Source: Prochilodus magdalenae
Lineage: Eukaryota; Chordata; Actinopteri; Characiformes; Prochilodontidae
Length of the DNA stretch: 64,000 bases
Reading direction: 5' to 3'
Assembly (NCBI GenBank): GCA_024036415.1
Contig: JAMWET010000150.1
Span: forward strand, 384,501 to 448,500
Below, in pieces: positions 13,461-37,900 of the stretch. Made by a program: the position numbers and the translations under genes. The notes under the pieces are model-generated. The model worked only from the letters and a program-made list of their open reading frames with translations, had not been told where the DNA came from and did not search any database. How positions within the stretch are numbered: position 1 is the first letter of the stretch; each line of letters starts with the position of its first letter.

Positions 13461-14027
13461 TTCCTACTATGCCGCATTTCCCCTGAGCTAGGTCTTAATA
13501 AACAGTACTTTTCACTTCAGATGGTGTGGGGCAGGTTAAATACTTAAAGTATAGTTCTCACTACATCTTGAATTCTTCACAGTCCTCATTTCTCCATCAT
13601 AAACACATGGTATGGCCATGAGTGCAGGAAGCAAGTGAGCTTTACCAGCCCGAAGAACTGAGAGCAGGGTTTTCAAATAGGCAATGTCCTTGTCACAAAA
13701 GTGAATCTGACTCACTGCATCCATTGTAGACTTTGTGTTATGTAACATGGACGTTTAAGTCCATTTAATTAAAAACCAGTATCAAAGTACTCAACAAAAG
13801 TAACAAAAGAAAAAGAGAAACAAGGAAACTTAAACTGAGATATAAAAAACCAACATGGAGGAAATTAGTTTGTAAGGGAATGAGAAGTGGTCATAGTCAT
13901 AAACAGAGCATTCCTAACATATTATTTTAAATTACCTACAAGTGAGTTTATTCCATGCCACAGATTGGGGGTTCTGTTCATCTGTTCATCTTTTACATGA
14001 ATGAAGTTACCTAAGACTGAAAAAATA
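13461..14027. other. Repeat remnant, no gene
   Basis: Contains the second copy (13753-13860) of the 12272-12396 segment. Nothing else recognised. Confidence 0.4.
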
Positions 14028-14645
14028 AGTCCCGCTGCCTGAGGAAAATCCAGAGGATCCGGCTGGACTGTAGCCACCCAGCACATGGCCTGTTCACCTT
14101 ACTGCCATCAGGCAGGAGATACCGCAGTATCCAGGCCAGAACAAACCAGCTAATGAACAGTTTTTACCCACAAGCCACCAGGTTCCTGAACAAACTGTGA
14201 GCCTTTCACCAATAGCACCAATACCACCAACACCAGCAACACCAGCAACACCACTCTGACTTATTATTATTATTAATATTCTTAACATATCACCGCTATG
14301 GACAACATCACTGAGTCACTTTAAACAACAGACATATATATAAATATACATATTCATATTACATCTCCGCTCTCTCTCAGACTATCCTTGCCTATAAATG
14401 TACATATCAGAATTTCTACACACCCCTCCTGTCTCTGTATGTTCTGTATTTGTGTATATTCTGTGTATCTTGTATTTATTTAATATATCTCTTTTAATAT
14501 CTCTTTATTTTAATGTTTAGTTAATATGTATACTGTATAATGTTGTCCTGCTGTGGTGTATCAACATGAGCCTCACCACAAGCATTTCAATGCATGAATG
14601 TCCTGACATGCTGTGCAAATGACAAATAAACCTGAAACTTAAAAC
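14028..14645 (+). mobile_element. LINE 3' end: reverse-transcriptase C-terminus plus 3' UTR
   Basis: Plus-strand 14030-14190 reads LRKIQRIRLD, then LLPSGRRYRSIQARTNQ and MNSFYPQATRFLN. This is the typical C-terminal block of a fish non-LTR retrotransposon ORF2. It is followed by about 450 bases of 3' UTR ending 'caaataaacctgaaactt', consistent with a 5'-truncated insertion. An (att)n and an (ac/ag)-like run occur in the UTR. Confidence 0.7.
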
Positions 14646-15179
14646 TTGAAAAAGATTTAAAACAGCCTGTTTTTCCTTTCCTATTAATGACCTGCGACAG
14701 CAACAATCAGTGAGCTCCTATAAAATATAAAGGGGTGGAATTACACTAATTAGCTGTAATTAGCCAACACATCATAATTCTGAAATACAAGCAGCGTTGT
14801 ACATATGATGGTAGATCTAATTACTATAATACCAGCTATCCTACTGCCTTCTCAATATGCATTCTGAATATGTGGGGTGTACTGGATAAGAAGATCGTGT
14901 TCAGTATTCAGCCAGAACCTCTTTTTAAATGATTCCACCTCATCGCTTTGTGGTAAGTCTGTACAGCATCTGCTTGATGTGTCAGAGAAAAGCTACACAA
15001 CTTCCCTAAGCCTAAGTTTTGACGGTTCCCAAAGTTACATTGGCGAAGCAGTGCAGATCCGGAAGCAAACTCTGAGTTTGAAAAATGTGTGACAAGCGCC
15101 TGTAGCACATGTGTCATTCGTTGCTCAAGACCACAATGAGAACTTGGTTTCTCAGTCTGGTGCATCTGTAACTGAAGTC
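14646..15179 (+). promoter_or_regulatory. Upstream region of itgae, promoter not resolved
   Basis: This is the 5' flank and probable 5' UTR of the integrin gene. No TATA box at a fixed distance or other clear core element was identified. Confidence 0.35.
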
Positions 15180-18100
15180 ATGACACTTCCGATGGGTTAT
15201 TGCATCAAGATGTTTCCAGCAGTGCTGCTGATGGCAGGTATGTCTAAAAGAGTTTGACCTACTTGCATATAAGGAGTAAAAAAGGCAGACATGTGAGAAA
15301 ACTAAAAAAAAAAACATTTTTAAGTATTTATTTGTGTTTGTTGTTCAGTACTGTGTGCTTAAATTGTTCTCTGTCTTCTGAAATGTAGGGATATACACCA
15401 CGGCAGGTTTCAACATATGGACGACGCCAGTGTATAACTTTACAGACAATGACAAACTGTTTGGACAAACCATCATTAAGTCAGGAGACGGGTTAGTGGT
15501 TTCTGGATCACTTTTATAAATAGATTCCAAACAACAAGCAGTAAAATGGTTCAAATGTGCCATTTAAATTTCTTCATATAAATATTGCTCACTGTTAAAA
15601 AATCTAAACATGTACCTCATTTGTTTCTACATTTTCCAAAGACTACCTGTACTTTATATTGCGTAAAAAATTCCACAAATGAACCCAAATGCTTTAAAAT
15701 CACTTAAACAACCTTATTGCATTAACCTGCTTTAGTCTAGAACATTTTTGCCTACTGCCATAAAGTTTTAGACTTACCTGTTTTTCTTTGGACAGTTACA
15801 GGTTCAGTTGAGCTAATAAAAATATAACTTAGTGAGCCATGGATTATTTTATTAGTTTTGAAATAAAAAAAAACAAGAATAAAATATACACAGCATTTAT
15901 TAAGTCGTGTTTTTTAATGAATGTATTTTTCCCCTCAGAATTTTTGTCCCTTCTCCTACCAGTGGAAATGTTTTCGAATGCACACTGAACAATGGTTGTA
16001 ACAAGCTGAATATCAGTGTTGGTAGGTTTGATTCCAGATAGGCATGTACAACTTAATGTAAAATCTTAATATTGAACCACTGACATGTTTCCCCATTGTT
16101 ATAAAAACTGTCTTGATAAATAACTTACAGAGATGCAGAAGAATGTGTCCCCGAGACCAATAACCTCTGTATCATCCAGCTTGAGTGAAGAGGAGGAGCA
16201 ACTTCTGGTACCATTTTATGTCTTTGATAAGTTACACATTTGTTAGCAAAAATCATGGGGTATTTTGTGTTTAAGGCTTTTGACTGATTGATTGACTATG
16301 GGCATGATTGATTGGTGGACTATTCCATCATCAGTACAGTTTTTGACCAGGAAATTAGCAAATAAGGAGTCAACTGTGCTTATGCTGTAAATCAGATATA
16401 TCAATTACTTACTGCGCAGACAGTTCACCGTCTGATTCTCATGACAGTTAGTGTTCTGAGGAAAACCACAGTTTCCCCTGCTAAAGGCGTCAGACTGACT
16501 GACTTCTCTTTTAGATACAGTCTCATTTGACAAAAATGGGAGAGTGAAGTGAAAAGGCAGCACACAGGTTTTTTTATATTATTCTCTCATGTCTAGTAGC
16601 CAGCATGTTCATTAGCAGTTAAGGAAAATAAACCGATGAGCCAATTTAATGTATATGGAGACAGTTACTAAACTCCAGAGCCTCAGTAAAGTGATTTTGA
16701 TCGTTGGAAACTTCCTCAGTGACCCGTTTTTATCATTTTAACCACCTCTTTTGTTAAACTTAGCACAAAGAAATCAGCACCTCATCTCCATAGCATCTCC
16801 ATAGCATTACTAAAACAATCAAACCTTCTATTCATGCTACACCAATGCTAAGACAACTTTCCTGAAAAAGTGACCAAGATACTTTTACTGTTGTCTCAAC
16901 TCTCAAGGTCTGTAATCAAGCTCGGATAAAGAAGAAGTTTTCTCCTGAGAAATTAAATGGACTTTGCACACTGGTAAATGACAAGCAGCAGAAAAAAATC
17001 AATCCTGCTGAGTTAGGTATTGATATTCTGCACTAAATCATTATTAAAAAGTTAAAAAGTTAAAAAATTGCCCTTGATTTTTTTATTCATTGTCGTTTTA
17101 TCTCTTTAGTGTCTGAGCAACTCAAGCGAAATGAGACAAATACGACCAGCAAAGGTAAACACTTTTGAGGAAGTAAAAGAAACAACCATAATCATAAACT
17201 TCCTATTTTTACTCATCAAACTTTTTTCTTACTCAGAAGCATATGACTTTCTTTGAATTAGGGCACTCAAGAAACAGAAGACAGGCTGAGCAAGATGCCG
17301 GTGATGGGGACAAGGGTGAAAATGCTGAAGGTGTTCCTCATTTTTGTCAGTCGTTCTACAAAAATGTTTTTATGTGTAATACGTGTGATTAATTTCACTT
17401 CCTTAGAAGTAGATCTTTACCTGAAGGGCCCATATCCTACCTTTACTGTAATTGCATATCTTGTGGTCAAACTATAGTATTTTAGTAATTTTTAACAAAA
17501 ACAGGCATAATTTATTCTTTCAGGACCATTTATTAACCTCTCTTTACCCTTTTGATTGACACAAACACAGGCTTGTTACTGTGCCACTAAGCCTGGCCTA
17601 AGATAAATAAGCTATATCCTGACTGGCTGTTCTGCATTGCACCTCGTTCAAAAAGCACTCTAAAACAAGCTGACATGGTTATAGGCGGGGCTTGAACGGC
17701 TGTGGCTGCATAGGTGAATATATGCAAATGAACTAGACACAGGAACCATGAACTCAAGTGGGCTGTGTTTGCAGCATAGTTCCCATATATGGACTATATG
17801 AACCCTGTATATTTTGAACCATGTAAACATGTTATTGAAAACATAGTTTTTCCAAACGTGAAAGGAATTTGTTTTTATATGATGGTTTTAAGATACGATA
17901 ATTTATTTTAGAGCAGAAATAAAATTTGTTTTGTGTCTGCCTGAAGATCCTGGGACTGAGATTGCTTTCGTGCTGGATGGTTCTGGCAGCATAGAGCCTG
18001 AGGATTTTGAACTGGCCAAAGACTTTATATCTACTGTGATGAGAAATGTCTGGTCATCATGTTCAACAGTAAGTCCATTTTTAACTCTTAGTCTGAACAT

Positions 18101-21100
18101 TTCTTAAACCTTAGTTGAAAGGGTTAGGGTTTAAAGTGGAATTGAGGTTTAAAGCGTTGGGGAATGTGTACACATCCTGTACATGAGATACATGAAAGTA
18201 GGAATACCCTGTTTTCTACAAGCCAATAACATAGCTCAAATAAAATGACATTACAGTAAAAGTAGAAATGATCTTGGTATGTTTCAAATTCTACTGGAGT
18301 ATGTCAGAGTATGAACCCTAATGTAGGTAACTGTCAGAAATGCTGTGGGTTATTATCTATGCACTTGGATACAATGTTTTTATCAAGTTGCATTAATTCA
18401 CGCATATTGATTCAAATGCATTGACTAAATGCATATCACATTTTGTGGCAGTTAATTGTTTCTTGGTTTCATTTAACACATAGGAACGCAAAGCAAAATA
18501 AATAAAATTGTGGCCTGTGTAGACCTTAAGCAAATAAATACAAACTGTGAACTAAAAACTGCAGGAAATGCCACATTTAGGTTTGAGTTAATTTCAGTTT
18601 TAAGATTTTTGTGACTACAGACACAGACATTTTAAAAGCTGGAAAAATCAGGAATGGGATACATTTTCAATATTTCAATAAAACTTTTCTCTATACATGT
18701 CACATACAGCACAATGGTGGAAAAAGTACAAAATAGCAACGGTACACCATAACATAGCATCGCACCACACAAGCAACAACACAGTATATGACTTCTGATA
18801 TTTTTCCGACATTTAAAGCTGGTTATAGCAAGCTTCTAATATAAGAGTGCAACAGGTCAGGCTGTATCCATGGATTCCTTCATCAAATCCCTTTAGATAT
18901 TTAGACAATGAAGTTTTTTCCCCACTTTAGAGTATCGAGTGTTGACATAAGCTACATTTCCATCACTGGGTTTTCTGTATGTGTGTGTTCTTTCCTCAGT
19001 GTAAATTTGCAGTAGTGCAGTTTGGAAATGAAATCAGAACTGAACTCTCACTGCAAGAAAATGACGATGCTGCCAAAGCTTTGAATAAAGTGAAGAGCAT
19101 AACACAGCTGGGCAAGCTTACCAAGACTGCCGATGCCCTCTACCACGTTCTGTAAGTGCCCTCAGCCAAACCATGAAATCAAGACTTCGTCTCAGACTCA
19201 GTTTTTGTTACTGTACACCATCTTACCACATAGTCTTTATTAGTTACTCTGATGGTACTTCACAGAACAGAAGTTTTTGTTCCTGAGAAAGGATCAACAA
19301 AGAACGCCAGGAAAATGATTATCTTGTTATCCGATGGAGAAATGACAGGAATACAGAGAAACCTAAACGAAGTCTTGAACATGCCACAGATGAATGGAGT
19401 TCTTCGCTTTGCTATAGGGGTAAGCACTGAATTTAATTTTACTGAACTTAATTACACAAACAGGGGACTGTTTATACTACACAATAATATACAATATGTG
19501 GATGATTTGTGATGTCATGGTGCTGTTAAAATGTGATCAGTGAAAAAAAACATTATAATGTTTTTTTGTTTATTTGTTTTCTTTTTTTGTCTTTTTGTAA
19601 ATATACAGTCATTCTTAATTTGATGCCTGCAACTCATTCCAAAAATGTTAGGACAGGTGAAGGACAACCAAAGTGGTCTGCATTATATCAGCTTTGCATT
19701 TTGCTAGTATTCATTTATATAAGTCTTTAGGTGTACCACCATGTGGGTCCACCTTTTTGCATTTTGTGTTTTTCACTGGTAGATAGGTGTGGACTGTGGG
19801 CAGGCCCAGCATCCAGACCAAGGTTTTTTAACTTCACGCTGGTAACAGTCTGGATGGCCCTTTTCTTCTTTGGCCTGAAAAAAAAAAAACAATCTCCATT
19901 ATCAATCAGAAATGCCTCTACTGTCAGTCCACCAGTCCATTTCAGAAAAGCTCAAGTGCAGATTTTAGGAATGTGTTGCAGGCCTCAGCTTTAATACTGC
20001 AGGCCTCAGTTTCAAGACTTTCACTTAAACAGGAATTCCAGCAATCATTTCATAATGTTCACATAATTCAGTCCTTAGGATGGTAACAAGGTCACAAGTG
20101 GTGTGATGTGAAATGGTTCATTGTAGAGAAACTTAGTGGCATTCATTTCTTCACAGTTGTGGTGTTCAAATTAATTACTGCACTGGTATCCAAGCTTTCA
20201 ACATGACTTTTTACTTTTAGTAGGACAGAACAGGTTTAAGTACAGACAGACTGGCCTCATGCAGTCCCATAAAGTGAACAAGTTCAAGGTTTAATTGAGC
20301 AAGTAAACGTGCATGGAAAAAATGCTGCTTCTCCTTTAAGTTCTACATCCACAGTTTTAATTCAAAGAACTGTTATTACACCGTGTGGCTTAAAACCTCA
20401 GCTGGAAATCAATATGCATGTGAAGAATCATCACAAGTGACCTACTATCGTTCAGGGATGACAAAAACGCACTTCCAAAATGTACAACACCTCGACTGTG
20501 TGTTCCAGTGTTAAGTGCTTTTCTTGAGTAGCAGTGATGTGGAAATGAAAAGCTGACTAAATCAGTGCTGCTCTGTCTACAGGTTGGACCTGAGGTTCAG
20601 AAAAGTAAGAAAGCAGTAAGTGAAATGACAGAGATAGCCGGTAGCCCACAGAGATTCTTCAAAGTGTCTGATTATGCTGCTTTGGAAACCATTCTTTCAC
20701 AAATAGAAAAAAACATCAAAGGTAAGACACTTTTATACATGTTGGGCTTTTGGGGTTGCAGTAAAACCTAACTTTGCTACTCAAGCTATTCAGATGATTG
20801 CACCATTGCCAGAAAGTGGGTACCTTTATCCAGCATAGTTTTGTTTTATTTAAAATGGAGTCATCTTGGCATGTGTCACTTGAAACATTTTATGTCTAAT
20901 GTGCATGATGCATATCATGTCCTTTAAACCAGACTTTTGCCTTACAGGGCCCCTATCCTACAATTGTATTATGTCTCTTGAATTGCCCTCACAACATATG
21001 AACAGGTTTATGTAACAAAAACAGTTAACATTTATTTTTCCATGATCATTTTCAATTTCAATTTAAAAAGAAACAGGCTGTTTTTGTTCAAGACTCTTGA

Positions 21101-24100
21101 GATAAGATGAATGAGCTCTGTCATAATAGGCCACCCTCTATTCTGCCTCAATAAACTTAGATACTAATTATTAAAACACTAATTATAACTTCTAATGAAA
21201 TGGGCAGGGTATATGTGAATGAGCTGATTGTTGTGGCATCACAGGCTGTTTTGCAGCTTAGTTTGCATATATGGACTGTGTTTCCTATCGTTAACAATGT
21301 TCATATTTTACATCAGCAGAGAAGCATGTTTTTCTATGATGTTTTTTTATATTTAGATAAGATTTCAGAAAAAAAAATTGGGGAAAAAATGCCTGACTGT
21401 TGTGTCTGTCTAAAGATCCTGGGACCGAGATTGCTTTTGTGCTGGATGGCTCCGGCAGCATTGAGCCTACAGATTTTGAATTGGCCAAAGACTTTATATC
21501 CACTGTGATGAAAGATACTTGGTCATTATGTTCAACAGTAAGTAGAATTTTACTCTGAACTACATATACAGTGTTTTCAAATATTCTTAGGTCCTGTACC
21601 TGTAAAAGTAGAAACAGACTTTATTATGCAAGCCAATAATATAACTCAAATAAAATAACATTAGAGTAAAAGCAGAAATCCTATTTTTACTTAACTGTCA
21701 AAAACATTGTGGGATGTTTTGTATACAGTTGGGTGCAAAAGTAAAATTTTGTGTTATGTGTCAGCACCTGCTGCAGAAGGTAGCATAGTAAAAGAATAAA
21801 TTGTCCTTTAAACTGCAGTGGAGGGAAACTAACAATAAAGTACATATACATTAAATACACTTAAAAGTACAAATACCTGAAAAACATTTATTCATTGTGG
21901 TAAAACTGCTTCTACAGTTCCATGACTGGGTTTTCTGTATGTGTTCTGTGTGTGTTCTTTCCTCAGTGTAAATTTGCAGTAGTGCAGTTTGGAAATGAAA
22001 TCAGAACTGAACTCTCACTGCAAGAAAATGACGATGCTGCCAAAGCTTTGAATAAAGTGAAGAGCATAACACAGCTGGGCATGCTTACCAAGACTGCCGA
22101 TGCCCTCTACCACGTTCTGTAAGTGCCCTCAACCAAACCATGAAATCAAGACTTCGTCTTAGACTCAGTTTTCATGAGTGTTACTGTACACCATCTTACC
22201 ACATAGTCTTTATTAGTTACTCTGATGGTACTTCACAGAACAGAAGTTTTTGTTCCTGAGAAAGGATCAACAAAGAACGCCAGGAAAATGATTATCTTGT
22301 TATCCGATGGAGAAATGACAGGAAAACAGAGAAACCTAAACGAAGTCTTGAACATGCCACAGATGAATGGAGTTCTTCGCTTTGCTATAGGGGTAAGCAC
22401 TGAATTTAATTTTACTGAACTTAATTACACAAACAGGGGACTGTTTCTACTACACAATAATATACAATATGTGGATGATTTATGATGTCATGGTGCTGTT
22501 AAAATGTGATCAGTGAAAAAAAACAACATTATATGTTTTTTTGTTTTTTTGTTTTCTTTTTTTGTCTTTTTGTAAATATACAGTCATTCTTAATTTGATG
22601 CCTGCAACTCATTCCAAAAATGTTAGGACAGGTGAAGGTTTTGCATTTTGCTAATATTCCTTTATATAAGTCTTTAGGTGTACCACCATGTGGGTTTTTT
22701 GCATTTTGTGTTTTTCAGTGCTAGATAGGTGTGGACTGTGGGCAAGCCCAACATCCAGACCAAGGTTTTTGAACTTCACGCTGGTAACAGTCTGGATGGC
22801 CTTTTCCCCTTTGGCCTGAAAAAAAAAAATCTCCATTATCAATCTGAAATGCTGCTACTATTGATTTGTATATTCTGTTTTATTAAACTGGAAACATTTA
22901 GCAGTATATTTAGCAAAAATACAATTTATCTAATGCCTGCAACTAATTTAAAAAAAGTTAGAACAATGGACAATGTGTTCCATGTTATATCACCTTATAC
23001 AAGTCTTCATATGTACCTATGTGGGTTCTTCCTGTTTGGGTTTTGCATTTTCATTGATAGATAGGTCTGGACTACGGGGTAGCCAGTCCAAAAGGCATGG
23101 CCAATTTCAGGTTTCTCCAAAATGTGTATGTATATTTTGTCATTAATGGTGAAAGTTGCCATGCACACTAATACTCCAATACCACAAAAGACGGTTTACC
23201 CTAGCAACAGTCTGGATGGTTCTTTTTTTCTTTGGCCTAGAAAACACAATGTCCATTATTTTCTAAAACAATCTGAAAGGCCATTGGTCAGTTGAGCTAG
23301 ATCCCAGATAAATGGTAGCATTTCTGGACATTGTTGACATAATGGATTCCGCTGCACATATTATAGTTCTAATAAATAATTTACATTGGCAGGCCAAGCT
23401 CTATGTTGTGATATCCATCACAGAACCATCACAGTGGTGGCATCTAAAATGGTGGTATCAAGGGTCAGAGACATTCAGTTTTGGCTTTCAGCGTTGACCT
23501 TTACATGGAAATTTCTTCAGATTCCCCAAATCTTTTGACAGTAATATATACAGCAGTGGATGAAACATGGTTTGCAGTTGCTTACTGAGGAACATTGTAC
23601 TTAAACCATCCTTGTTCATACAGCCCTAGACTTTTCCTGGGTGCTCCTTCTAAACCCAAGCACAACTACATCACCTGTTTAAGATGCTTTTGTCTTAAAC
23701 TATCCCGGTCCCAACTTTTTGGAATGTGTTGCAGGCACAGATTTGAGTATGAGCAGTGTTGAAGGTGGTAAGGTAGAATATTAGGTATCTTGTCTTTGTT
23801 CTGAACTTAGCTTGATCAGAGTGGCAACAGTGTAGATTTTGTACTGTTACAAACTGCTCCCACTGGCTGTGGAGCTGTCCATTGCCTCAAGCAAATGCTC
23901 CCTGCCCGCTAGTCTGTTTGTTCGCTAGATTGGAATTCTAATATACTTTGCTCAACATGATTGACATGGGTAAATTTCTTACTGCATTGGTATACAGACT
24001 TTCAACATGACTTAGTAGGAAATAACTGAGTCAAAGTACAAACAGAATGGTCTTATACACTCCAAGTGATCATGGAACAAGAAAACAAGCATTCAAGTAT

Positions 24101-27100
24101 TTTTGTTTCTCCCTTAATTTCTACATCCACTGCTTTAATTGAAACAATGTTCATCACACAAGCATGCTCAAATTAGTCTGAAGATCAACATGCAGTGAAG
24201 AGCCATCAATTACAAGGAGTGACAAAAAAGCACTTTTAAAATGTAAAACTTGTGAACTGCTGTTCTCAGTGTTAAGTTTCCCTGAGCAGCAAGAATGTGA
24301 CAGTTAAAGAGCTGAACTTTAACTTATATGCAACACACACAGATTACTAAACAGTGCTGTTCTATTCACAGGTTGGAGCTGAAATAAATAAAAGTACGAA
24401 AGCACAACGTGAGATGACAGAGATAGCTGGTAGCCCAGAGAGATTCTTCTATGTGTCTAATTATGCTGCTTTGGAGAAAAACATTCTTTCTTATGAAGGA
24501 AAAAGCATATTTCATGTTGAAGGTAAGCCACTACTGCAAACCATTTGGGTTGCAGAAAGTCACACCTAACTAACACCTAACTGGGTATTTTTATGTAATA
24601 TGCTCTTACTTTACAAAAAAAAATGGTAGCACCGGCATGTGTCACTCGTACTTGATGCCATGCTAAATATCCTCTATTTGAGCGCTATCCTCTTTGCTCA
24701 GGCGTTAAGAAGGGCGTATCATTTGAACTTGCCCTTGCAGAGGCTGGATCCAGCTCTCACTAAACTCACATTGTAAGCTCTGTATGTTGCTAATCAGTAA
24801 CACGTGAACGTTTTTAAAAATAGACACATATATGTCATAGTTTTTTGTTGGGCTTTTAGAGATCTTAAGTAACACCACACGGATTTCTTACTGTTGGTGT
24901 TATATAAAGGTCTGTAATCAGGCTCAGACTAAAAAATTTTCCTCTCAAGAACCTTAGTGCATGTTTAATAAATGTGTTAAATCAGGAGGAGAAAGATAAA
25001 CCTACTCCTGATGAGTTTGGTATTGCTATTCAGACTAAATCTTGATTAAGACGTTGTGTATGAACGGAACTGCCCTTGATTTCCATTCATTTAACTCTTC
25101 TGTTTCAGAGCCAGTCAAGCGAAATGACACAGATGATACCAGCAAAGGTAAACACAATTGAAGAAGTGAAAGAAACAACCAAAAATGAGAGTCACTGTAC
25201 TTCTTATTGTTAATTTTGTCTGACTTATTATTTAGTGCACTCGAGAAGGAGAAGACAGGCTGAGCAAAAGGGCAATGACATGGAAGAGGATGAAGACGAT
25301 GAAGGTTTTTAATTTTAGCCGGCTGTTCTTTAAAAAACATTTCTTGTCTAATCTGCATGATGTCACTTTTTTAAGGCCAGGGTCATCCCTGTAGGATTCC
25401 CTTATATATTTAAGTATATGTATACAACAGTAATTTCTCTTTACATGATCATCGTTATCCCTTAGACTGTGTGAATTTAAGATAATTGATATTAGATAAA
25501 TAAGCTCTGTTCTGATTGGCAGTTCTGTGTTGCACCTCATTCAGAGCTAAAACACTCTTTATAACTCCAGGGGGAATATGTGGGGTTAAACAGCTGTATA
25601 AGACTACACACGATTTCAGAGTAGAAAACAGTTTTGGAAAAAAAGCTGACTGTTGTGTCTGCCTGAAGATCCTGGGACTGAGATTGCTTTCGTGCTGGAT
25701 GGCTCCGGCAGCATTGAACCTCCTGATTTTGAACTGGCCAAGGATTTTATATCTACTGTGATGAGAAATGTCTGGTCATTATGTTTTACAGTAAGTAGGT
25801 TTTCACTCTTAGGCTAACATGTAAATGTACTTAACTGTCCAGAAAATTGGGTTTATTATGTATGCAGTCATATGCAAAAATCAAAGGCACACCTGGTCAA
25901 ATTATACATTATGTTTTTAATGAAAAATGACTGTGTATTATATATATATATATCACAAATACACAGTAATTTTTCATATATAAAACCACATGATGTAGAA
26001 AGTGGTGTAGAAAACTTACTGATACTGATACATTTTCATTGCTGGGTTTTCTTGTATGTATGTGTTCTTTCCACAGTGTAACTTTGCGATAGTGCAGTTT
26101 GGAAATAAAACCACAGTCGAACTCTCACTGAAAGAAAATGAAGATGGTACCAAAGCTTTAAACAAAGTGAAGAGCATAACACAGCTGGGCGAGCTAACCA
26201 AGACTGCCGATGCCCTCTATCGTGTTCTGTAAGAGCCCTCAACCAAACCATGAAATCGAGACTTTAATTCAAGAAATCAAGTACCAAACAGTCCAGCCTC
26301 TTAACAGTTTATATCAGTGTTTACTACCCATCACCCTACCACATAGTCTTTATTAGTTCCTCTGATGCTCCTTTACAGAACAGAAGTTTATGTTCCCGAA
26401 AATGGATCAAAAAAGAATGCCAGAAAAATTATTATCGTGTTATCCGATGGAGAAATGACAGGAATACAGAGAAACCTAACCGAGGTCTTGAACATGCCAC
26501 AAATGAATGAAGTTCTTCGCTATTCTATAGGGGTAAGCACCGCTTAATTAACTGAATTTCATTACACATTTCTCAAACGTATTTTTGTAATACACCATAA
26601 TATACAATATTGTTTGGAAGATTTGTGATTTTCATTTTCTATTTGATTCTGTTTGATATTGGTTATTTTTATGTACGTAGTTATACATTTTTTGGTACAT
26701 ATATGTATTTAAAATTTGATGCATGTAACCCATTTTAAAAAGTTAGAATAGAAGCATGTTTACCTCTATGTTCTGTATTATACCATCGTTTTATCATTAT
26801 TTCATTATAACCCAAAATAAGCCTTCAGCTGTACCACCACATGGGTTTTTGCAATTTGCACTTTTTATTGATGGATAGGTCTGGACTGCAGGCAAGCCAG
26901 TCCAGGATACGCACTTTCTGGTTGCATAGTCAGGTTGTTGCAACCTATGAAGAATGTGGTTTAGCGTTGTGGTGCTTAAACCAGCATGGATGTGCCTGAT
27001 AAAAGGTGTAGTCATCACATGCTTCTCCAACATGTGTGTTTACAGTATATTTTACCACTATGCCTAGTAGTACATATGTACTACTTATTACGCTCTCATG

Positions 27101-28917
27101 CCATAAAAGACCCTGTTTTTTACCTTTACAGTCATAACAATTTAAATGGTCTTTTTCTTCTTTGGCCTGGAAAACACAATGTCCATTTTCTCCATCAACA
27201 ATCTTAAAGGTGTAAGACGTAAAGGTGTGGTGATCTTCATTACAAAAGCAGGCTGTTAGTTTAATGCAGTGCCATCCAAAGGTTAACAACATTAAGTTGT
27301 GACTTTCAGCTTGCCCCCTTTACACACAGTTTATCAGATGTTTTGCCATTGTACCATTTGCCAACTGCGCTTGCATGAAGATAAATTTGTGTACCTAATT
27401 TAACCCACCACCTACTGAACACACACTAAGAGGAAATGCACAGCCCAATACAAGGCAGGGAGCAGGTTGGGGGTTAGGTGCTTTGCTCAAATGCATTCTT
27501 CTAAATGCTAAGTTAATAGCGCTGGTTTTAAACTGTACTGTGCTAATTTGCACATTTTTAACAATGTAGCTAGCCTTAACTCCTTGTTCATCAAGGACTA
27601 GACCATTCCAAGATGCTCTTTTTACCCAGGTGTAATTACATTACCTCTCAAAGACGTTTTCTAAACATTTCTTGTCGTTAACTGTCCCAGCATGGGCTCT
27701 TTTTCTGTCTTTGACATAAGACTCCTCCTCACATTTCACATGACTGATTATAAATGTCATGCTTTTTTATGTATGAGCCTTTTATGTATGATCTTACATG
27801 ATCTGGTTGTAACCTGGACAGTATATTTAGTGGCAATAGATTAAACAACATCACTGTCATTTCTTTCTCGGGTGTCAACTAGAGAGAGAACAAACTGTAT
27901 TGAGAATGTAGCTTATTTATTGTTTTCCAGGGCAAGTCTGACCTGGTTGTAAGGTACACAGCCCTAAGTATCAGAAGCAGGAGACGATCAGAACAAACTG
28001 AGCTGTCATACAGCATGAAATGTGATAGTCGTAAACATCCTGAAAGACATGTCAAAAAGCTGACCCTTTGTTTGTAACTGACCAATAGAGTTAGTTTATT
28101 AGATGTGGCTTGGTGTATGTGCCCTCCAAACTAGTACTTTTAAGAGAAGTGGTATATGTTCAGCTTGTGTCTACTGTGCAAATGCTCATTGAAGCTTCGC
28201 AGGTGTGTTCATCATTTACTGATGGTTTTTATGAATTCCATGGACCTCAGCTATTTGTTTAACTGTCACAGCACCTCACTTGCATTTCCTTAGGTATGGA
28301 CCATTAAAAAAAACATCTTTAATAAAAAGTTCATTTTTGTTCAGAATTTAATTCACAAAGGAAAGATGTCATATAGGTTGTATTCATTACACATAAAGGG
28401 ACAGATTTTAAGCTGTTTTGTTTTAATGTTCAGTACAGTTTACAGCTTATTAATCATAATCTGAAATACAGTCTTAAATCATTAGAATATATTTAGAATA
28501 ATTTACTATTTAAACTATGCACATGCAACCACAATCATAGGGAAGACTCCACTCCTGACGCAGAAGTCACTCCTGACGCAGAGACAATGTCAGAAGCATC
28601 GTATCTGGGTTAAGGAAAAAAAGACCTGAACTGTTGCTCAGTGGTCTAAAGAACTTAGTTTAGTGTGCCATGTCATCCAGTGGTGTTGGCCCACGGTTTT
28701 ATCACATCCAAAGTCAGTGGTGCCGTTAACCAGGATATTTTAGAGCTACATATAAATGCTTTCATTTGCTGACAACCTTTGTGGAGTTGCTCCTGCCCAC
28801 AGTGCTACCAAATGGTTTGTTGACCATGATACAGTTGTGTTGATTGCCCAGTCATCTTTCTAGACCTGAACCCCATAGAGAATCTAAAAGGTGTGGTCAA
28901 GAGGAAGATAAACACCA

Positions 28918-28951
<34 letters not shown>

Positions 28952-31900
28952 TCAGTGGGACTAGTCTGCCTCCTCTGCAGGATGATAGAAACAGGATCAT
29001 TTTATTTTGCCAAGTGTGTCACACATTTAATTCTGAAAAAACATCTTTTCTTTAGTTACTATTTGGCTTTAAAACATCTTGCATGCAACTGTGCAGTGTA
29101 AATATGCTTTCAAAAGGCCAAAACTTATATAAAAAAACGTATATAAGACTGTAACTATGTCCTCTAATAACTTTCTGTAATGGAGCGTAAACTTTAGGGC
29201 CATCAAAGTTATTGAGTCCCTGGTTTCTGTCACCACTGGTGTGAAGTTTCCCTACAACAGAGCTTTGTATTAAAAACACTCTGAATGACTTTGCTGTCAT
29301 CTTGATAAATTGATTATACAGAAGTTTTTTTTAACACATTAGTGGAATTCCTCTTTAACATTCTTCTACTGGCCTAAGGTTCTAAGGTTCCTCAAGCTAT
29401 ATGCTTATATAGTGCATGACTGGAAGGAGTCAAATTAATTATTGGTATAGAGGTTTTCATCATGACTTTTAATGTTAGCAGGGTGGAAATCCCCATTGGC
29501 CCCACAATAGAATACTAATCATGCATGAAGCCATGCAAACACTGCTGTGGTGACAGCATTACCAGTAAAAATGCATGAATATTAGAGAAGGGTAGATTTA
29601 TAGTCAGTGTTCACTTATCTGCCCTCTAGTGGAAGCCTCCAGTAACACGTGTGGCACATAGACAAGTATGTGGACAATTCCGTTCACAATGCAGCCAGTT
29701 GTGAAGGCATGGTCAAATAGAAAGTATATCTCTAGCCTAAAACGTGAACCTTGTGGTGAACACAGCAGCTATTCTCTTCATAGGTACTCGCTATTAAGGC
29801 TAGCTCTGCTGCAGCAGGTGTGGAGACAGTAAATACTGGTGATATTTCAGATGGTTCTGTCTCCCAGCAATTAGTTAATTAACCAGTTAAAGATTTTAAC
29901 ACTTTTTTTGCTTACACATAACATACACAGCTTACTAAACCAGTGCTGTTCTATCCACAGGTTGGAGCTGAAGTAAATAAAAGTGAGAAAGCACAACGTG
30001 AGATGACAGAGATAGCTGGTAGCCCAGACAGATTCTTCTTTGTGTCTAATTATGCTGCTTTGGAGAAAATTCTTTCTGAAATAGAAACAAACATAGTTGA
30101 CATCGAAGGTAAGCTACTTTTGTTAATTATGGTCTTTTGGGGTTGCTTAAAATTTATGTTATTCAGAAGATGCTACCTTTGCTGGAAAGTGGATATTAGT
30201 TTTATCTGGCACAGTTGTATCTTAATTAAAATGGTAGCACCTTGGCACATGTCATTAATACATGATACCCATGCTTAGTATTTTCCATCTCTTCTTTATC
30301 AGGCATTAAGAAGGGTGTAGGATTTCAATTTGAACTTGCAGAGGCTGGATTTAGCTCTCATCTAACCCATGAGGTAAGCTCTGGATGTTGATAACTCAGA
30401 TAACTTTCACAGTAACTTGTGAAAGTTGTTAAAATGCACATAGTCATCGTGTTTACTTTCCTTTCGAAGATAATAACACCACATGGATTTCTTTCTCAAC
30501 TTGTAGGGATCTATGCTTTTTGGGGCAGTGGGGGCATATGACTGGAGTGGGGGGATCATTCTGAAAAGGGAGGAAGAAGACAAAGTAAAATTTCTGAATG
30601 TTACCAAAGAAGAGCCAAGATTTTCGTATCTGGGTAAGATCTTTAGACGGTGTGACCGTTGAAAGCATGAATGCAGTAGTATTTTTGAATGCTTTATAAA
30701 TGGTTTTGGCCATGACAGGTTACAGTGTGACATCTGCTCGCATGGCCACAAAAACACTATACATATCTGGAGCTCCGAGGTACAACTTGACGGGAGCAGT
30801 CTTTATTTTTGATGAAACCAGCCAGGATTCGATTGAAGGAGATCAGGTTTGAAAAAAACAAAAACAAATGCAACACATTAATTTTTGTTCATGATAAACT
30901 ATTCACATTTTAAACTGGAGTGAGATGATGGTAGGGTTCCCACTTTTCCAAAGTGTGCATGTATTCATGTATATTCATGTATGTCATGTAACTTGGATTT
31001 CAGTTTCCATTCCTGTTCAATTCCAGTTTTCATATCCAAGTAGTTCCTTCAGGTTTTGACTGCTTCTTTATTCCAGTCAAACCATTTGTGTACAAACTGA
31101 GTTGGATTGGTTCAATAAGAGTCATTTCTCTTAGAAAACTGCACTGTTGGTAAAACATTTAGGCAATTGGCTGCACAGCAAAATGATACCTGAAAAGATT
31201 TGGTTCTGTCTTGGGTTGCACATGAGTTAAGCTACCAATCCACTGAATAAAGTAAGCTAGAGGGTGAGGGGGAAAACTGTGTTAATTTGATCCACTTTTA
31301 AATGACTGGAGATCTTAACACAGCCAGCATTTTAACTTACCTTCTGTACAGAATTGGACTCACAGGTCCAGATATAATCAGTCAGTGACTGTGTGTTATG
31401 CCTGATGCAACACTATAACTGAGAAGATAAAGTTCTGTGGCTTAACTGATATGGATCTTTAGACTGCATGGTGAGCACAGCCACCTATCTGCCTTTGTTT
31501 TTATTTGCAGGGCTAAGATGGGATCTCTAGCATGTATCTCACCCAGTTTAAAGAAATGGTCATGGCAAATCTTCATTTATTAGTTACTGATGCAGTACTT
31601 GGTTTTACAGGTTGGATCTTACTTTGGCTCTGTTCTCTGTGCCTTGGATATTGATAACAATAAAGAGACAGATTACCTGTTAGTTGGAGCACCACATTTT
31701 CACGTAAAAGGGGAAGAAGGCAAAGTGCTTGTGTACAAACTACGTGAAGTATGTCCACTAATTCTCTTATGTTTCCTAAATATTTGTATTTTGTTAGTAT
31801 TACTAAACCTAATAACTGTTCTTTGCGATGCCACACCAGGGGAAGTTTGAGAAAGAAAATTATGAATTACATGGAATGGAAATACACAATTATGCAAGGT

Positions 31901-34900
31901 TTGGCTCTGCCATAGCTGATATTGGAGACATTGATGGCAACAAATACAACGACATAGCAATAGGAGCGCCTCTTGAAGCAGCTCACTCAGGAAGCATTTA
32001 CATATATAACGTCTTTAAAGATGGAGTAAAGCCAGAGTTTTCACAGGTGAGCTAAGTCTCTGTATTATACCGTATTACCCTTGGTACCTTTGATTATCTA
32101 TAGTAGATTTACCCCACTGCAAAAGATTATCACTGTGCAAGGAAACCTATATTATTATTAATTATTAAATGTCTTATTTTTTAGATTATTTTAACCTTGT
32201 TACAGGATTACTTATCTTATTTATCAGATAGCAGATCATTTGTCTTGTTTCAAGCCTATGTCTTTAAATCAGCAAAATTATCTTCCACTTTATACAATAA
32301 GGAAAAACTAGAAATAAGTGAACCTATATACTATAACTATAGAGCATATTATAATATTATTTCACTTATTTCTAGTATAAGAATCAACCAGATATATCAA
32401 CCAGGTCATTTTACTTGTCAAGATATCATTTTTGCAGTGCTCTTTTTTTAAAGAGTGGCCTACATTATCCAAAGCACAATGTGTTGCTATAGAGCAGTAA
32501 GTATGTAGTTAGTTCCGACCTCAACACTAATGCATTAGATCCAACCAATCATCCACTTCTAAAACAGTTAATCAGTTGAAGCAGGTTTGACAGATTACGT
32601 TTGGAATTAGACTCTGCAGGAGTCTCCAGGCATCATGCTTTTGCGGGCACATATCTAGAACTTTGGGGCCCTAGGCAGTTTTTTGGGACCTACAATCTTG
32701 CTATCTGATGTCCTGTAACAAAACAAAAACAAAAATCTCTAAAAGCATTGACTACCACAAGTTACCTACAATATATGCTTGTCTAATTTCATATTGTTCA
32801 CTGCAGAAGTATCTAAACTTGGATTAATCACAGTCTGTGTACATAAACCAGAATTATTAGAGTATAAACACTGGATTATTCACAGCCTGAGTATATACTC
32901 CTAATTATTTTTTATAGTCTGAGAATCTAGATCTGGATTATTCACAACCAAGAATATATCCTGAATTATTCATATAATATATCCTTGGGACTAATCATCC
33001 AGATGATCTGTTTTTAAGGGCATCACAATAACGTTTTTTCTTTGCAGAGAATAGCACCATCAGATTTCGGGATGAAACTCATGCATTTTGGGCAAGCAGT
33101 GAGTGCCATGTTCAACTCAGAAAAAAACAAGGAGATCTTCATCAGTGTTGGGAGTGAAGGGGCTGTAAATGTCTTTAAGTGAGTAAAATATCTAATTATA
33201 TGGAAATTATGTGAAATAAACATGGAAGTTATTAGAATAGTTTGTTATTAGTTATTATATTTGCCTCATATTTATTATGATATAAGGAGATGTTTGTGGT
33301 TTTCAAACTGTATTAGCAGATGCTTCCCTGATGAATGGCCTTGTTTTTTGTGTACTTCTAGGACTGTTCCTGTTATTGTTATTGAACCAAATATTGAAGT
33401 CAATCCTGAAAAGATTGCCCTTGATAAAATAGACCACAAGTTTCCGGTAACCGTCAGTATCTGCTTTAATGACCTCAGGAGGAAAATTGAATGTAAGTCA
33501 AACCCAATATTGAATGTATCACATTATAAACGTGTTTCTTCTTTTATAAAAGTACTTTCCCACACTGTCTTTTTAGCTGGTGAAACACTAAGCATCGAGT
33601 ACCAAATTGAAGTGGACCCTGATAAAAAAGAGCAGCGAGTACTTGATAGCCATGGCAAGAAAAACACCTTCATCCTGACAAAAGATCAAAACTGCATTAA
33701 TCGAATAGCTCTAGAGTATATGGTAATTTACTGCTAGACTCTATTTATAATGAATTTCTGCTAGAAAGGCCTAAAACTGTTTTTTTAATGATTATGATAT
33801 TGGTCATAATGCTACATTTCTGTTTACAGGGCTGCTTTGACTGTTTTACACCTATCAAAATCAAAGTCATTTTTACTGTGCCCCCGACCGAGGATGGAAT
33901 TCCTGTGCGAGTACTTGATGCTTTTAGTCAAACTGAGTCCATAAAAGAGGTACATGACTTCTACAAGCTTATACAATACTCAGCAAAAGTGCACCTTAGC
34001 ACATAGCCTAAAACCACATGTCGGTCTTCTGAAGCAGCAACAGAGTCAGTGTTACTAAGCTTCAGCTACAGAAAACCTAACAAGTGAATGATGGAAAGGT
34101 TTAGATACAACGACTGTGATTTTTAAGTTACAAAAACAGAGACATTAATCCTCATGTTGTGCATATATCAAAAATGTTAAGTGAATTTTAAGAACTGCCA
34201 GGTGAGAAAAGGGTATTTATACATTAAATAAAGACATAAACAAAAGTATGAAATAAGATGATGCAGGTAGTTATATTTAAGCAGATTATTTTGACAAAAT
34301 GCCAAAATTAGAGCATATATTTTCGCTGCATAAATACATACATATAAATTTACTTTCATTATGTGCAACCACAAACTAAACATTTTCTAAATATGGAGTC
34401 ACAAAGCCAAAACAGACGAAAACGGGATTTTGGCTGTAAGTCACAAAAAAGTACCACTTATATGAAAGAGCATCTTAAATCTAAACACCAAAGGTGTTAA
34501 CTGAGAAAATGTTCCCATTTACCAGAAGGGTGACTGTGCCGCTATCTGGACATACACGGAAATTCAGTGCTGTGTATACAGACTATAAACATGATATTGT
34601 ACAAGCGTCTTAGGCACCTGAGCTGCCAAAAACCATATATGTATAATCACTAACATTGAAAAAATAAACAAACAAACACACCCTTCTTTAAAAAGCCCAG
34701 CATTACTGTTAGGTCAGGTTTTGTACTGAGGTATGTCTTGAATGGAATGTTTTTAGTCTGCTCACTTTTAACACCTTTTTTTTTTTATGGTTCAGATTCC
34801 ATTCCAAAAGAAATGCACAGATCTAAGTACCTGCCAACCAAAGATTTCATTAGATAATTCAGAAGCCAGGTGAGTTTGTCATTCAGATTTTAAGCTGCTC

Positions 34901-37900
34901 TATGAGAGTGCTTGTCAGAGCAGGCTGCAAGCCATTATCCTGCACTGGTCTTCATAGTGTTTATTTTTTTAGTCCAAAGTCACAACCTCGAATACTCTGT
35001 AGCGAGTCTGTCTGGCTTTCTGGAAACACAAAAACGTTGTAGGACTAAAACAGAGCACCACACGCAAAATTTGGGGAGCATGTGGGTAGCTTAATCCCAG
35101 AATCTTATATACAGCAATTCAAATATAAAAATGCAACCAAAGCCTGATATCTCATGTTTTATATGTCTGCATTTGAAAAGAAAATGTTTAATAGAATTAA
35201 AACAAGTAGATATTATGATTACTTAAAAATGCATTTATTATGAAAAAGAATAGTAATATGATCCATATGCAGTGTAGAGAATCAGATTTGTTGCCTATTA
35301 CATAGTTTTGTAACTGTTGTGTATTTCATTTCATTCCGATGTGGCTTCATATGCTGAAACCTTAATGCAACTAGTTCAAGCAATCCAAACATAAACTGCA
35401 CAAAATACTCTCATATCAGCTCGTATCTTTATACACCAGATCAGCCTCAGTATAAAGTTGATGTTTATATACAAATTTGAGTATCATCATTGTGTATTTA
35501 GAGGTTTACTATATATGTGTTTATTTTAAGCCACAGTGTGACATGATCTTCAGTGTGATCATGTGTTGCATTATTAGTTTAACCAGCTGTTGAATGAAAC
35601 ATGTTCTATAAAGTTCCAACTGAAGTTGCTTGAAGGTTTCACTGTATAAAGCCAGCCTTAAAATCCGCATGCTGTTATAGTGGTGAATATGGTAGTGGTA
35701 GTGGATTTAGATTTTTTATAAGGATAAAGGAAGGAATAACTGTAATGGCATGAGTCATCAAATGAACATAGTACATTAAAGCAGTATTAAAAAGCGTTAC
35801 AGGGCAGGTCAGGGCTTCTTTCATTCTGTCAGTACTGACTATTAAAAAATCTAATTTTGATTTAATCAGAGTTGTATCCGAAGTTTTAAGCTAGCCAGAC
35901 AGCTTATTTGCAATTCCACTATGTAAATTTCTTTACAATCTTGTGTAATTTCAAAAAATGATCTGAATGTGAAACCCCCTCTTAAATATACACTAGTGAG
36001 AACACAGAATAATGGCATCAGTCTTCAAATAGTGCACTCAACTTAGTATTTGGAACTGTATTTGAGAAAAGAAGGCTACAGTGCTTTTGTGACTACTGAC
36101 TTTATATATATATATATTTCATTTCAGCACTAACATGATCATAATTGGCTTCACTGAATCCCTGAGTATACATTTTGATCTTCTAAACACTGGGTATGAG
36201 TCATATCTGACCACTCTGACTTTGAATTATCCTAAAATACTTCAGTCAAAGGTAAATCATGATTGCACGCATACTTCTATTTATGGACTTCCAAACAGCG
36301 TTGTTGGTAGCTGACTTTTTTTGTGTGTGGACAAAAGGGCGGACAGTGCGAGGCGAAAGATGATCTGATGAGGTGTTCACTTATGTATCCTGTGTTCAAA
36401 GCAAATGCCAAGGTATAAATTGAGCTTGTGTGACAACTAACTTTGAAACTTTCTGACTTTAATCAGCTTTAATATGGCTTCTGCATTTCTTAATCCTTTA
36501 TCTATTTTGTACAATAACAGACAGCAGTCTCTGTTGCCTGGCAGACTGTAAATATGAAGACAAACCTGAGCAGTGCTACAATCCATGCAGTTTTAACAGG
36601 GTTTGTCCTACTGAATTACTCTCTCTCTGTAACCTTACTGAATGGGAGAAACTGTGTGCTGTATGTTCTATTCAAATATATTTCTTCACTTATTTTATTT
36701 ACCTCCAGTGGACATGATGGCACTGTGGAACTTGCCTCCAAGACATACGAATTTGAAGTTAAACATGCCCTTGACTTGCAGTTTACTGGGTAAACATTTA
36801 GAAACATGTATTCGTTTGTCAATTAGACAATCTCGGGTTCACCCATGTTGCTTTTCCTAATTTTTTTCTACTTTTCAACAGCACAGCTACTCCAAACCTA
36901 TTCACTATTGAAGAAGGAGAAAAAAGCCACGACCCAAAAGATCTGAAGTTCAGCTTTAAGGTACAGTCTGGGAAGACAACAAACGTTCGTTCGCAGTTAA
37001 TAAATGTTTTTTTAATATAAACTGTGAAAAACATGGAACTGATCGTGGTCTGTGATCTGTTTCAGCTGCTGGGTGAAAACAAGTACAAGGCCGAACTAAC
37101 CGTGATCATAACCATACCAAAGCAGATAGACAATACAAAACTGCAAATCAAGAGTGTTGATCAAAAGGTATGCACATGATAGACTGTGGATAAGTTACAA
37201 TTGTTTAGACACAGTTTTCCTATTGACTTGTGTCTTTCCTTTTTCTTAGATTTGCACACAGAATGATGCAATGTCTGAGGTAGGAGACGTCCGGCCAAAT
37301 GAATGTTTTTTCTTTCTTTAGGAATGTAGGATTTAATCATGCTCTGTATATCTTACTTTTCATTGTGTTTTCTGTGTCTAATTAAAGGACTATCACATTG
37401 AATGTAATCTGATAGACCTGCAAGACATAAACATTGAAGCGATTGCTATTATCGGTGACATTAAGGTACAGTACAAAAACTGGCTATTAGTGTTGATGTT
37501 ATCAGAAAAAGCCTAGTGTTGATAAATGTCAGGTCCTTTAGCCCAAAAGGTCAAAAATCTGATGTAATTTTATTGTGAATTCCTAGTGGTGGACAGTAGC
37601 CAGGTAAATGTAATTTATTATTGTGCTTAAGTAGTTTTTCCTGTATGTTTATTTTACTAAAGGACTTTTACTGTTACTCAAGTACATTTGAAGGTAAATA
37701 CTTTAGTACTTTTACTCAAGTAAAAAGGAGGAGGACTAAAAGGAGGAACTTTTACTGGATGATTATTTTACTTTAAGGAATCTCTACTTTAACTTAAATA
37801 CATGGTTTGTGTACTTTGTCCACCACTATGAATTATTGAGAGCCTGAGAGGCTGCAAGCATCACAATTCATTAAAAAAAATACTTGCAAGAATAAAACAC

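Follow-up and report, generated by a model that had tools for sequence, protein, structure and literature searches.

The itgae gene of Prochilodus magdalenae encodes an integrin alpha-E chain with a tandemly amplified I-domain insert. Judged from the sequence, its main product is slightly favoured (roughly 55%) to be one chain that would carry several I domains in series, in the order A, B, second X-linker (X2) and C, with C as the relay, accompanied by skipped and hybrid forms. Alpha-E is the receptor that holds leukocytes in epithelia, and I-domain integrins are taught as having one I domain per chain, with its C-terminal Glu as the trigger for the beta subunit. This one-per-chain rule may fail for alpha-E. 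The first-pass annotation had restated it for all known chains; it is true of the solved human alpha-E, in which one stretch matched, but not of public alpha-E models, which in many vertebrates, this gene included, have two to five I domains.

Gene organization

The window, the whole 64,000-nucleotide stretch of DNA analysed, holds one N-terminal and one C-terminal exon set of itgae:

15180-38446, forward strand: itgae, complete gene (open frames, AG/GT boundaries, translation)
15180-17330, forward strand: N-terminal exon set, seven exons at 15180-15237, 15389-15491, 15939-16021, 16131-16207, 16908-17016, 17110-17154 and 17262-17330 (open frame, AG/GT boundaries, translation)
30303-38446, forward strand: C-terminal exon set, 21 exons (translation, Pfam)

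The C-terminal set encodes the rest of the beta-propeller, an Ig-like leg, a transmembrane helix, a KCGFFRRRR tail and the stop. Alpha-E traits found in the gene are the FG-GAP propeller, the Ig-like leg, the transmembrane region and the GFFxR-type tail, and Pfam marks three VWA stretches, FG-GAP and Integrin_A_Ig_2 on the A-B-X2-C chain; where a canonical chain has one I domain, itgae here has three. The best solved-structure match of the I domain and the region following it is human alpha-E (E 5e-55), and named database matches are alpha-E, except for hypothetical, collagen alpha(VI)-like and Cullin-5 fusion names. The identification as itgae with single flanking exon sets, made in the first-pass annotation, is thus borne out. 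A tblastn search with the chain found no further itgae copy in the window outside 15000-38500, and five of six other open reading frames in the window have no Pfam match. Alpha-E pairs with beta7 and binds E-cadherin. For the zebrafish alpha-E, itgae.2, an effect on E-cadherin in neutrophils is reported in the available text of PMC12889812.

A public Prochilodus magdalenae protein, P0001, equals the window's chain save for an 18-residue insertion in P0001, and its order is exactly A-B-X2-C, second X-linker included. P0001 derives from the same assembly as the window and represents the same gene; its annotation drew on homology, including Scleropages (itself multi-I), and on RNA-seq, according to the available part of PMC9893009.

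I-domain cassettes

Three complete four-exon cassettes lie in tandem between the flanking sets, all twelve exons being where they had originally been placed:

17947-20721, forward strand: cassette A, exons 17947-18068, 19000-19151, 19266-19419 and 20583-20721; MIDAS intact, C-terminal internal-ligand Glu missing
21416-24522, forward strand: cassette B, exons 21416-21537, 21967-22118, 22239-22392 and 24372-24522; MIDAS and Glu present, alpha7 region altered
25669-30108, forward strand: cassette C, exons 25669-25790, 26077-26228, 26379-26532 and 29961-30108; MIDAS and Glu present

The canonical splice sites, agreeing lengths and open frames described earlier hold up: all 12 acceptors are AG and all 12 donors read GTAAG with T, A or C as the next base (splice-site scores were based on consensus frequencies), and exon lengths are 122/152/154 in each cassette, then 139 (A), 151 (B) or 148 (C). 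MIDAS persists too, with D-S-S-T-D in all three. Sequence, frames, phases, homology, and Glu and MIDAS states were read directly. Boundary phases are identical across the cassettes (1-0, 0-2, 2-0, 0-1), in keeping with the phase 1-to-1 organization proposed for each; whole cassettes and exon-level hybrids therefore remain in frame. Eight translated combinations are all open (A; B; C; A-B; A-B-C; A-X2-C; A-B-X2-C; no cassette), and A-B-X2-C, with the second X-linker between B and C, yields the 1515-residue three-I chain that had been predicted.

Placed singly between the N- and C-terminal exon sets, each cassette also preserves the frame, as phase-compatible alternatives would. Splicing might thus pick one cassette per transcript, giving one receptor several ligand specificities, but this appears unlikely. 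Of the positions at which A, B and C differ, three lie near MIDAS residues, which would fit distinct ligand faces: E/T/P at the sixth residue past the second Ser, K/M/E at the second residue ahead of the Thr, and I/K/I at the sixth past the second Asp. These positions, however, vary among single-I otophysan genes too, and a joint choice of four exons would be required. Ligand-face diversification by selection was set aside as an explanation, the positions being suggestive only and variable among single-copy genes. The first-pass annotation had offered alternative and serial architectures; both hold as candidates, but with unequal likelihood given the missing Glu of A, the second X-linker and the Carassius isoforms described below.

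Cassette B carries one extra residue ahead of its Glu, which lies one residue later, and a Gly in the alpha7 helix. Some residues that are otherwise invariant across 43 single-I otophysan domains, F40 among them, are missing from A and B, and C, which adjoins the C-terminal exon set, also departs from such residues (T55V, H90R).

Second X-linker and dead exons

In human alpha-E, an X-linker with a basic site and an acidic stretch lies directly before the I domain. In the window gene, the first X-linker consists of the last two N-terminal exons and carries RNRR, a furin-type motif at most 45 amino acids before the first I domain. Three further features lie between B and C:

24702-24772, forward strand: dead copy of the post-I-domain exon; interrupted by an in-frame TAA, with its AG acceptor and GT donor retained
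24910-25019, forward strand: dead duplicate of exon 5 (original at 16908-17016); all three frames interrupted by stops, save a short shifted one; acceptor weak
25109-25304, forward strand: second X-linker, exons 25109-25147 and 25236-25304; phase 1-1, RRRR, acidic tail, present in P0001

A basic site with an acidic tail is therefore found twice, as RNRR ahead of A and RRRR ahead of C. The twelve cassette exons and two second-linker exons are intact in frame, whereas the two other duplicated exons, which would break the frame, are dead; the dead post-I exon, if spliced in, terminates the chain after B. The chief plausible place for the second X-linker is between B and C; it would be of no use if splicing selected a single cassette. 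The first-pass annotation named only its junction, 24522-25109, and did not describe it as an intact exon pair; the dead exons, the near-identical A/B tract and the loss of Glu in cassette A were likewise absent from it.

Divergence and constraint

One tract in A is nearly identical to its counterpart in B:

18952-19922, forward strand: A tract matching B tract 21912-22859 (92% with gaps)

We interpret this pair as the result of gene conversion or of a recent partial duplication. Its substitutions fall at 2 of 306 exon sites and 23 of 627 intron sites (Fisher p 0.008); both exon changes are of the ligand-face kind, as one-cassette splicing would also have it. The copies are mosaic, exons 2-3 of A and B being 99% identical and exon 4 of B being closest to C at 88.5%, while exons 1 and 4 of A and B diverge by 13-19% from C or each other. 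Stacking of haplotypes or repeats during assembly is very improbable. The assembly is a hybrid draft that its authors call fragmented in the available text of PMC9893009, but the same text gives 17.6x PacBio reads with a mean of 9.2 kb. Outside this one 0.95-kb tract the copies are too different for haplotypes, their mosaic nature also speaks against stacking, and independently assembled genomes of other species contain multi-I models as well.

Compared in pairs over their full length, the cassettes have dN/dS values of 0.41-0.49. In exon 4, B and C are separated by 15 replacement and 2 silent changes (dN/dS about 2), which, with the altered alpha7 of B, may indicate that B is decaying. Under simulated neutral decay (5000 runs each, with parameters set by the analysis itself), a cassette stays open and spliceable with a probability of 0.012-0.014 at 7% divergence and 0.002-0.003 at 10%. 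Chance or unconstrained open reading frames are ruled out by the frames, splice sites, dN/dS and this simulation.

A broader form of the decay argument, in which only C is in use and A and B are young decaying duplicates that are skipped or confined to minor transcripts, seems rather improbable. It would account for the missing Glu of A, the disturbed alpha7 and high exon 4 replacement rate of B, the two neighbouring exons already dead and the single I domain in the other Characiformes models listed. Yet A and B keep frames, splice sites and MIDAS despite the divergence of exons 1 and 4, which the simulation makes improbable; their protein end branches (0.09 and 0.11) do not exceed the one leading to C (0.15) in length; the tract exons are more conserved than the introns; and birds and turtles have kept an upstream domain over a deep split in the tree.

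Multi-I alpha-E models in other vertebrates

Alpha-E models with several I domains are already present in databases, and no discussion of them was found in the literature searched. Two to five I domains occur in 60 of 210 scored models, a biased sample and no population estimate, since all three protein-search queries (best 120 of 794, 769 and 1108 matches, respectively) were picked as multi-I; it includes the window gene twice (window model and P0001), several isoforms from a single gene and the probable gene-level misjoin P0028, and leaves out P0196, P0021, P0088 and, as in the Glu counts, domain matches covering <165 of 192 profile positions. The multi-I relatives, mostly automatic gene models, have three I domains in Carassius gibelio X5, Megalops, Scleropages, Rhinatrema and Protopterus and two in birds and turtles. 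One I domain is found in the 36 mammalian models counted, in each other Characiformes model listed with a counted I domain (P0016-P0020, P0022-P0024) and in a second Carassius gibelio model on another contig (P0056).

Four Carassius gibelio isoforms, compared from 18 member sequences in the cluster, carry two or three I domains, the last one Glu-bearing; these four models contradict one alternative per transcript in a relative. In X17 and X18, hybrid I domains begin with exons 1-2 or 1-3 of I2 and finish with exons 3-4 or 4 of I3. A Silurus model with two directly joined I domains is predicted with confidence to form two I folds, the 4-residue joint between them having low confidence (pLDDT 82.2 overall, pTM 0.51, alignment of 42); P0114, predicted without an alignment, reached pLDDT 30.

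A single origin of the upstream copies is rejected by the tree and by AU tests. The idea of one ancient duplication shared by all species was accordingly discarded: in AU tests on a hand-picked 75 of 285 domains, a single non-terminal clade is rejected with 14 teleost rows (p 5.8e-6) and with 26 rows (p 1.8e-46). Gene conversion could still hide older copies.

All 148 single I domains retain the internal-ligand Glu, against 54 of 58 terminal domains and 14 of 72 upstream domains, counts that drop seven records (P0196, P0021, P0088, P0028, P0193, P0141, P0001). Such a pattern is expected if only the last domain must drive the beta subunit. Cassette A, without this Glu, could hardly serve as a sole classical I domain, which again argues against one-cassette splicing. 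For birds, an initial alignment column suggested E in 31 of the 33 upstream domains; it was misaligned, as ungapped tails show S, T or P there, and the avian upstream domain has also lost MIDAS residues.

Proposed serial chain

In the preferred serial reading, the chain would run from the N-terminal propeller blades through X-linker 1, I-A, I-B, X-linker 2 and I-C to the rest of the propeller, the leg and the membrane anchor. I-C would occupy the position that the sole I domain takes in other alpha-E chains, with its C-terminal Glu as the putative internal ligand for the beta subunit, by analogy with E372 of human alpha-E, which coordinates the beta7 MIDAS according to the available text of PMC10659397. 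I-A and I-B might protrude as loops held by flexible joints and serve as additional metal-dependent ligand heads, and I-A, its Glu lost, would not be directly wired to the beta subunit. Because every cassette and internal boundary shares its phase, cassette skipping, or a splice from an early exon straight into a later exon of the following cassette, could give shorter or hybrid forms, comparable to the Carassius annotation. That the gene is transcribed, how it is spliced, its pairing with beta7, and its ligand and mechanics are what we infer here.

Counted for the serial chain are the intact cassette and linker exons against the dead frame-breaking ones, the order of P0001, serial I domains in relatives, the Carassius isoforms, the Glu pattern, the fewer changes in A/B tract exons and the Silurus model. 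Counted against it are the retained AG/GT of the dead exon, the alpha7 and exon 4 of B, the constant-residue losses of A and B, the mostly automatic nature of the relatives' models, the shared assembly and partly homology-based annotation of P0001, the 14 of 72 upstream domains with Glu, the single-I Characiformes and P0056.

More tentatively, alpha-E in many non-mammalian vertebrates might be a modular receptor: the I domain would be repeatedly amplified, upstream I domains freed from the beta relay by loss of Glu (in birds also of MIDAS residues), and cassettes combined or hybridised by phase-matched splicing into chains differing in the number and kind of ligand heads. Here, the A-B pair might be cut free at the two cleavable X-linkers as a soluble double I domain. 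If true, a serial chain would separate ligand binding from triggering, and upstream domains without Glu would be natural, ready-made tests of the internal-ligand model. Repeated amplification would point to selection on epithelial adhesion, not seen in the mammalian models counted.

Comparison with known systems

Human integrin alpha-E (CD103; PDB 9p97/8zjf) has in common with this gene MIDAS, the internal-ligand Glu (C and B here) and an acidic linker with a basic cleavage-type site, but it has one I domain and one X-linker where the Prochilodus gene has three and two. Integrins alpha-6 and alpha-7 have alternative X1/X2 exons, a splice-selected change of the ligand-binding region. Those are single small exons, in contrast to the four-exon domains here, which are candidates for splice choice.

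Tandem vWA arrays are also found in Plasmodium CTRP. The N-terminal vWA arrays of collagen VI are likewise tandem beads on a string, as described in the available text of PMC3919171. Unlike the I domains here, the collagen VI and CTRP arrays lie outside any integrin propeller and are uncoupled from a beta subunit. A further close likeness is with the multi-I alpha-E models of Carassius gibelio (X5), Megalops, Scleropages, Rhinatrema, Protopterus, birds and turtles, which have serial I domains at the same insertion place and, like Prochilodus, keep Glu in the terminal domain and often lose it upstream. They differ in having arisen by separate duplications and, in birds and turtles, in having two I domains, the avian upstream one without MIDAS residues.

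Organization and identity of the gene

The window contains a complete integrin alpha gene, itgae. Its exons fall into an N-terminal set of seven, three I-domain cassettes of four exons each (A, B and C), an additional pair encoding a linker, and 21 that follow downstream:

15180–38446, plus strand, complete integrin alpha gene (itgae)
17947–20721, plus strand, cassette A
21416–24522, plus strand, cassette B
25669–30108, plus strand, cassette C

The first-pass annotation had described three tandem I-domain cassettes within one gene, and these were recovered with identical internal exon phases and a reading frame that stays open throughout all eight cassette combinations translated. In Pfam, the 1515-residue chain matches VWA in three stretches, besides FG-GAP and an Ig-like domain of integrins. 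The assignment to itgae also holds: among solved structures, alpha-E (9p97/8zjf, E 5e-55) comes closest to cassette C plus the exon after it, ahead of alpha-M (E 2.5e-33). A public Prochilodus magdalenae protein, NFI96_013908 (P0001, 1533 aa), is identical to the window chain except for 18 additional residues ahead of cassette A. The draft genome of that species combines Illumina and 17.6x PacBio reads, with annotation based on homology and pooled RNA-seq (PMC9893009).

Several other features lie around itgae:

3378–3713, minus strand, open exon with many acidic and tyrosine-containing motifs, downstream of the V-set exon and perhaps the cytoplasmic part of that receptor
5171–5584, minus strand, Ig V-set receptor exon (Pfam V-set, 9e-12)
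6401–7522, minisatellite (68-bp unit, 16.5 copies, 98% matches)
14000–14650, candidate 3' end of a LINE-type retroelement, by eye, just upstream of itgae
42394–46970 and beyond, plus strand, following gene, cullin-5-like by eye

In Triplophysa, alpha-E I domains and cullin domains are fused in one model named Cullin-5 (P0021), consistent with the same order of itgae and cullin-5 in that fish.

Origin of the array and constraint on its cassettes

Unit-versus-unit Blast places the B/C boundary at about 24892–24907, where a duplicate of the post-I-domain region abuts a duplicate of the stretch that starts at exon 5. Because the boundary joins these two regions, the duplicated segment ran from exon 5 through the post-I exon. 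Between the dead exon copies and cassette C, both exons of a second X-linker (the exon pair preceding an I domain) are intact:

24702–24772, plus strand, post-I exon copy carrying TAA
24910–25019, plus strand, exon-5 copy carrying stops
25109–25147 and 25236–25304, second X-linker

A and B share a near-identical tract of 0.95 kb spanning exons 2–3 (99% identity in exons), while exon 4 of B is 88.5% identical to C versus 81% to A, so the cassettes form a mosaic, which looks like the result of gene conversion or of a partial copy made later. Substitutions in the A/B tract fall at 2 of 306 exon sites versus 23 of 627 intron sites (p 0.008), and both exon differences alter the protein. Pairwise dN/dS over whole cassettes is 0.41–0.49, a moderate value that alone would leave room for selection on one of the copies to have relaxed. 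Between B and C, exon 4 differs by 15 replacement and 2 silent changes. A and B evolve no faster than C, since their protein end branches (0.09 and 0.11) are not longer than that of C (0.15); cassette C deviates at residues constant across 43 single-I otophysan domains.

I-domain number and ancestry in relatives

Three protein searches listed 212 proteins; of these plus the window model, a sample biased toward multi-I queries, 210 were scored with an I-domain profile built from the window cassettes and their relatives. Among these matches, 150 of 210 have one I domain and 60 have two or more (see table).

I-domain number among the matches listed
Four or five: "collagen alpha-6(VI)-like" models of Brachyhypopomus, Clarias, Hemibagrus
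Three: Carassius gibelio X5, Megalops atlanticus, Scleropages, Rhinatrema, Protopterus
Two: birds (33/38 records; the remaining five start within an I domain), turtles (6 records), Cetorhinus, Acipenser, Megalops cyprinoides, Sinocyclocheilus, Silurus
One: 36 mammals, 5 crocodilians, 43 otophysans, 20/21 amphibians, 6/7 squamates (the remaining one is probably a misjoin)

P0056, a Carassius model distinct from X5, also has one. The N-terminal part of the collagen-named models is 46–94% identical to that of the alpha-E model whose contig is equally long, and the rest of alpha-E is absent. Collagen alpha-6(VI)- or alpha-5(VI)-like genes of electric fish and catfish (P0004, P0006, P0009, P0207) have an alpha-E-like start and two to five alpha-E I domains without the integrin C-terminal part. 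Since each species also has an alpha-E model on a contig of equal length, such genes may be tandem neighbours of alpha-E or truncated forms.

A quick tree of 122 I domains groups the window copies together (SH-aLRT 95) beside single-I Hoplias; some of its forks have weak support, and the lungfish rows in it are long. Copies of electric fish, cyprinids, Megalops, Scleropages, sturgeon, caecilian and shark each fall within their own lineage, catfish copies sit among catfish domains, and bird and turtle upstream (non-last) domains form a single old group (99). A single clade of non-terminal I domains was rejected by AU tests.

Serial chain or alternative cassettes

We scored the C-terminal internal-ligand Glu aligned with human alpha-E E372, by a count that takes the signal peptide as 18 residues. 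According to PMC10659397, this residue of human alpha-E completes the MIDAS of beta7 when the receptor is active. Counting isoforms of one gene as separate rows, Glu is present in 148/148 single-I domains (fifteen residues past the anchor in 140, off by one or two in the other eight) and in 54/58 terminal (last) domains, the exceptions being the truncated or broken P0004, P0005 and P0207, and P0049 with Asp. Upstream domains retain it in 14/72, including cassette B, where it lies one residue later; cassette A lacks it. By junction, it occurs in 6/24 directly joined upstream domains and 8/48 joined by a linker; all 39 bird and turtle rows, which belong to the linker-joined set, lack it. Because Glu is near-constant in single and terminal domains and rare upstream, the terminal domain would act as the relay, leaving upstream domains free to lose Glu. 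This pattern is the expectation for serial chains rather than alternative cassettes.

Bird upstream domains (P0079–P0109, P0114, P0149 and other bird records) have Ser for the last Asp of the MIDAS (D-S-S-T-D) in 33/33 records; the MIDAS is intact in 5/6 turtle upstream domains. The first of the two bird I domains persists as a domain despite losing MIDAS residues and Glu.

An AlphaFold2 model of the two-I Silurus chain P0008 (42 sequences; pLDDT 82.2, pTM 0.51) contains two complete I folds, with low confidence at the direct I-I joint (244–247) and behind the last I domain (438–450); E438 is invariant across the alignment. The model indicates that two directly joined I domains can fold, and is silent on domain arrangement.

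Among relatives, splice forms are annotated in Carassius gibelio, as automatic models from short reads of which four of 18 cluster members were compared. X16, X17 and X18 have the N- and C-terminal parts of X5: X16 combines I1 and I3, X17 has I1 followed by a hybrid of I2 exons 1–2 and I3 exons 3–4, and X18 has a hybrid of I2 exons 1–3 and I3 exon 4. In a comparison of P0012, P0013 and P0014 with P0002, the hybrid domains of X17 and X18 switch cassettes at exon borders. Amazona isoforms differ in the inter-I linker.

The triple I-domain array in fish itgae is real and selected-looking, and is one among several separate amplifications. The likeliest reading is a chain with its I domains in series, plus splice variants (probability roughly 0.55).

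Relation to known alpha-E integrins

Among 5.39 million open papers, no description of an integrin alpha chain with more than one I domain was found; subscription papers were mostly outside this scope, so this is no proof. The words "tandem" and "duplicat" are absent from an alpha-E evolution paper (PMC10659397). Zebrafish itgae.2 is reported to support neutrophil traction on E-cadherin (PMC12889812); by analogy with this reported action, the ligand of the window alpha-E is likely to be E-cadherin.
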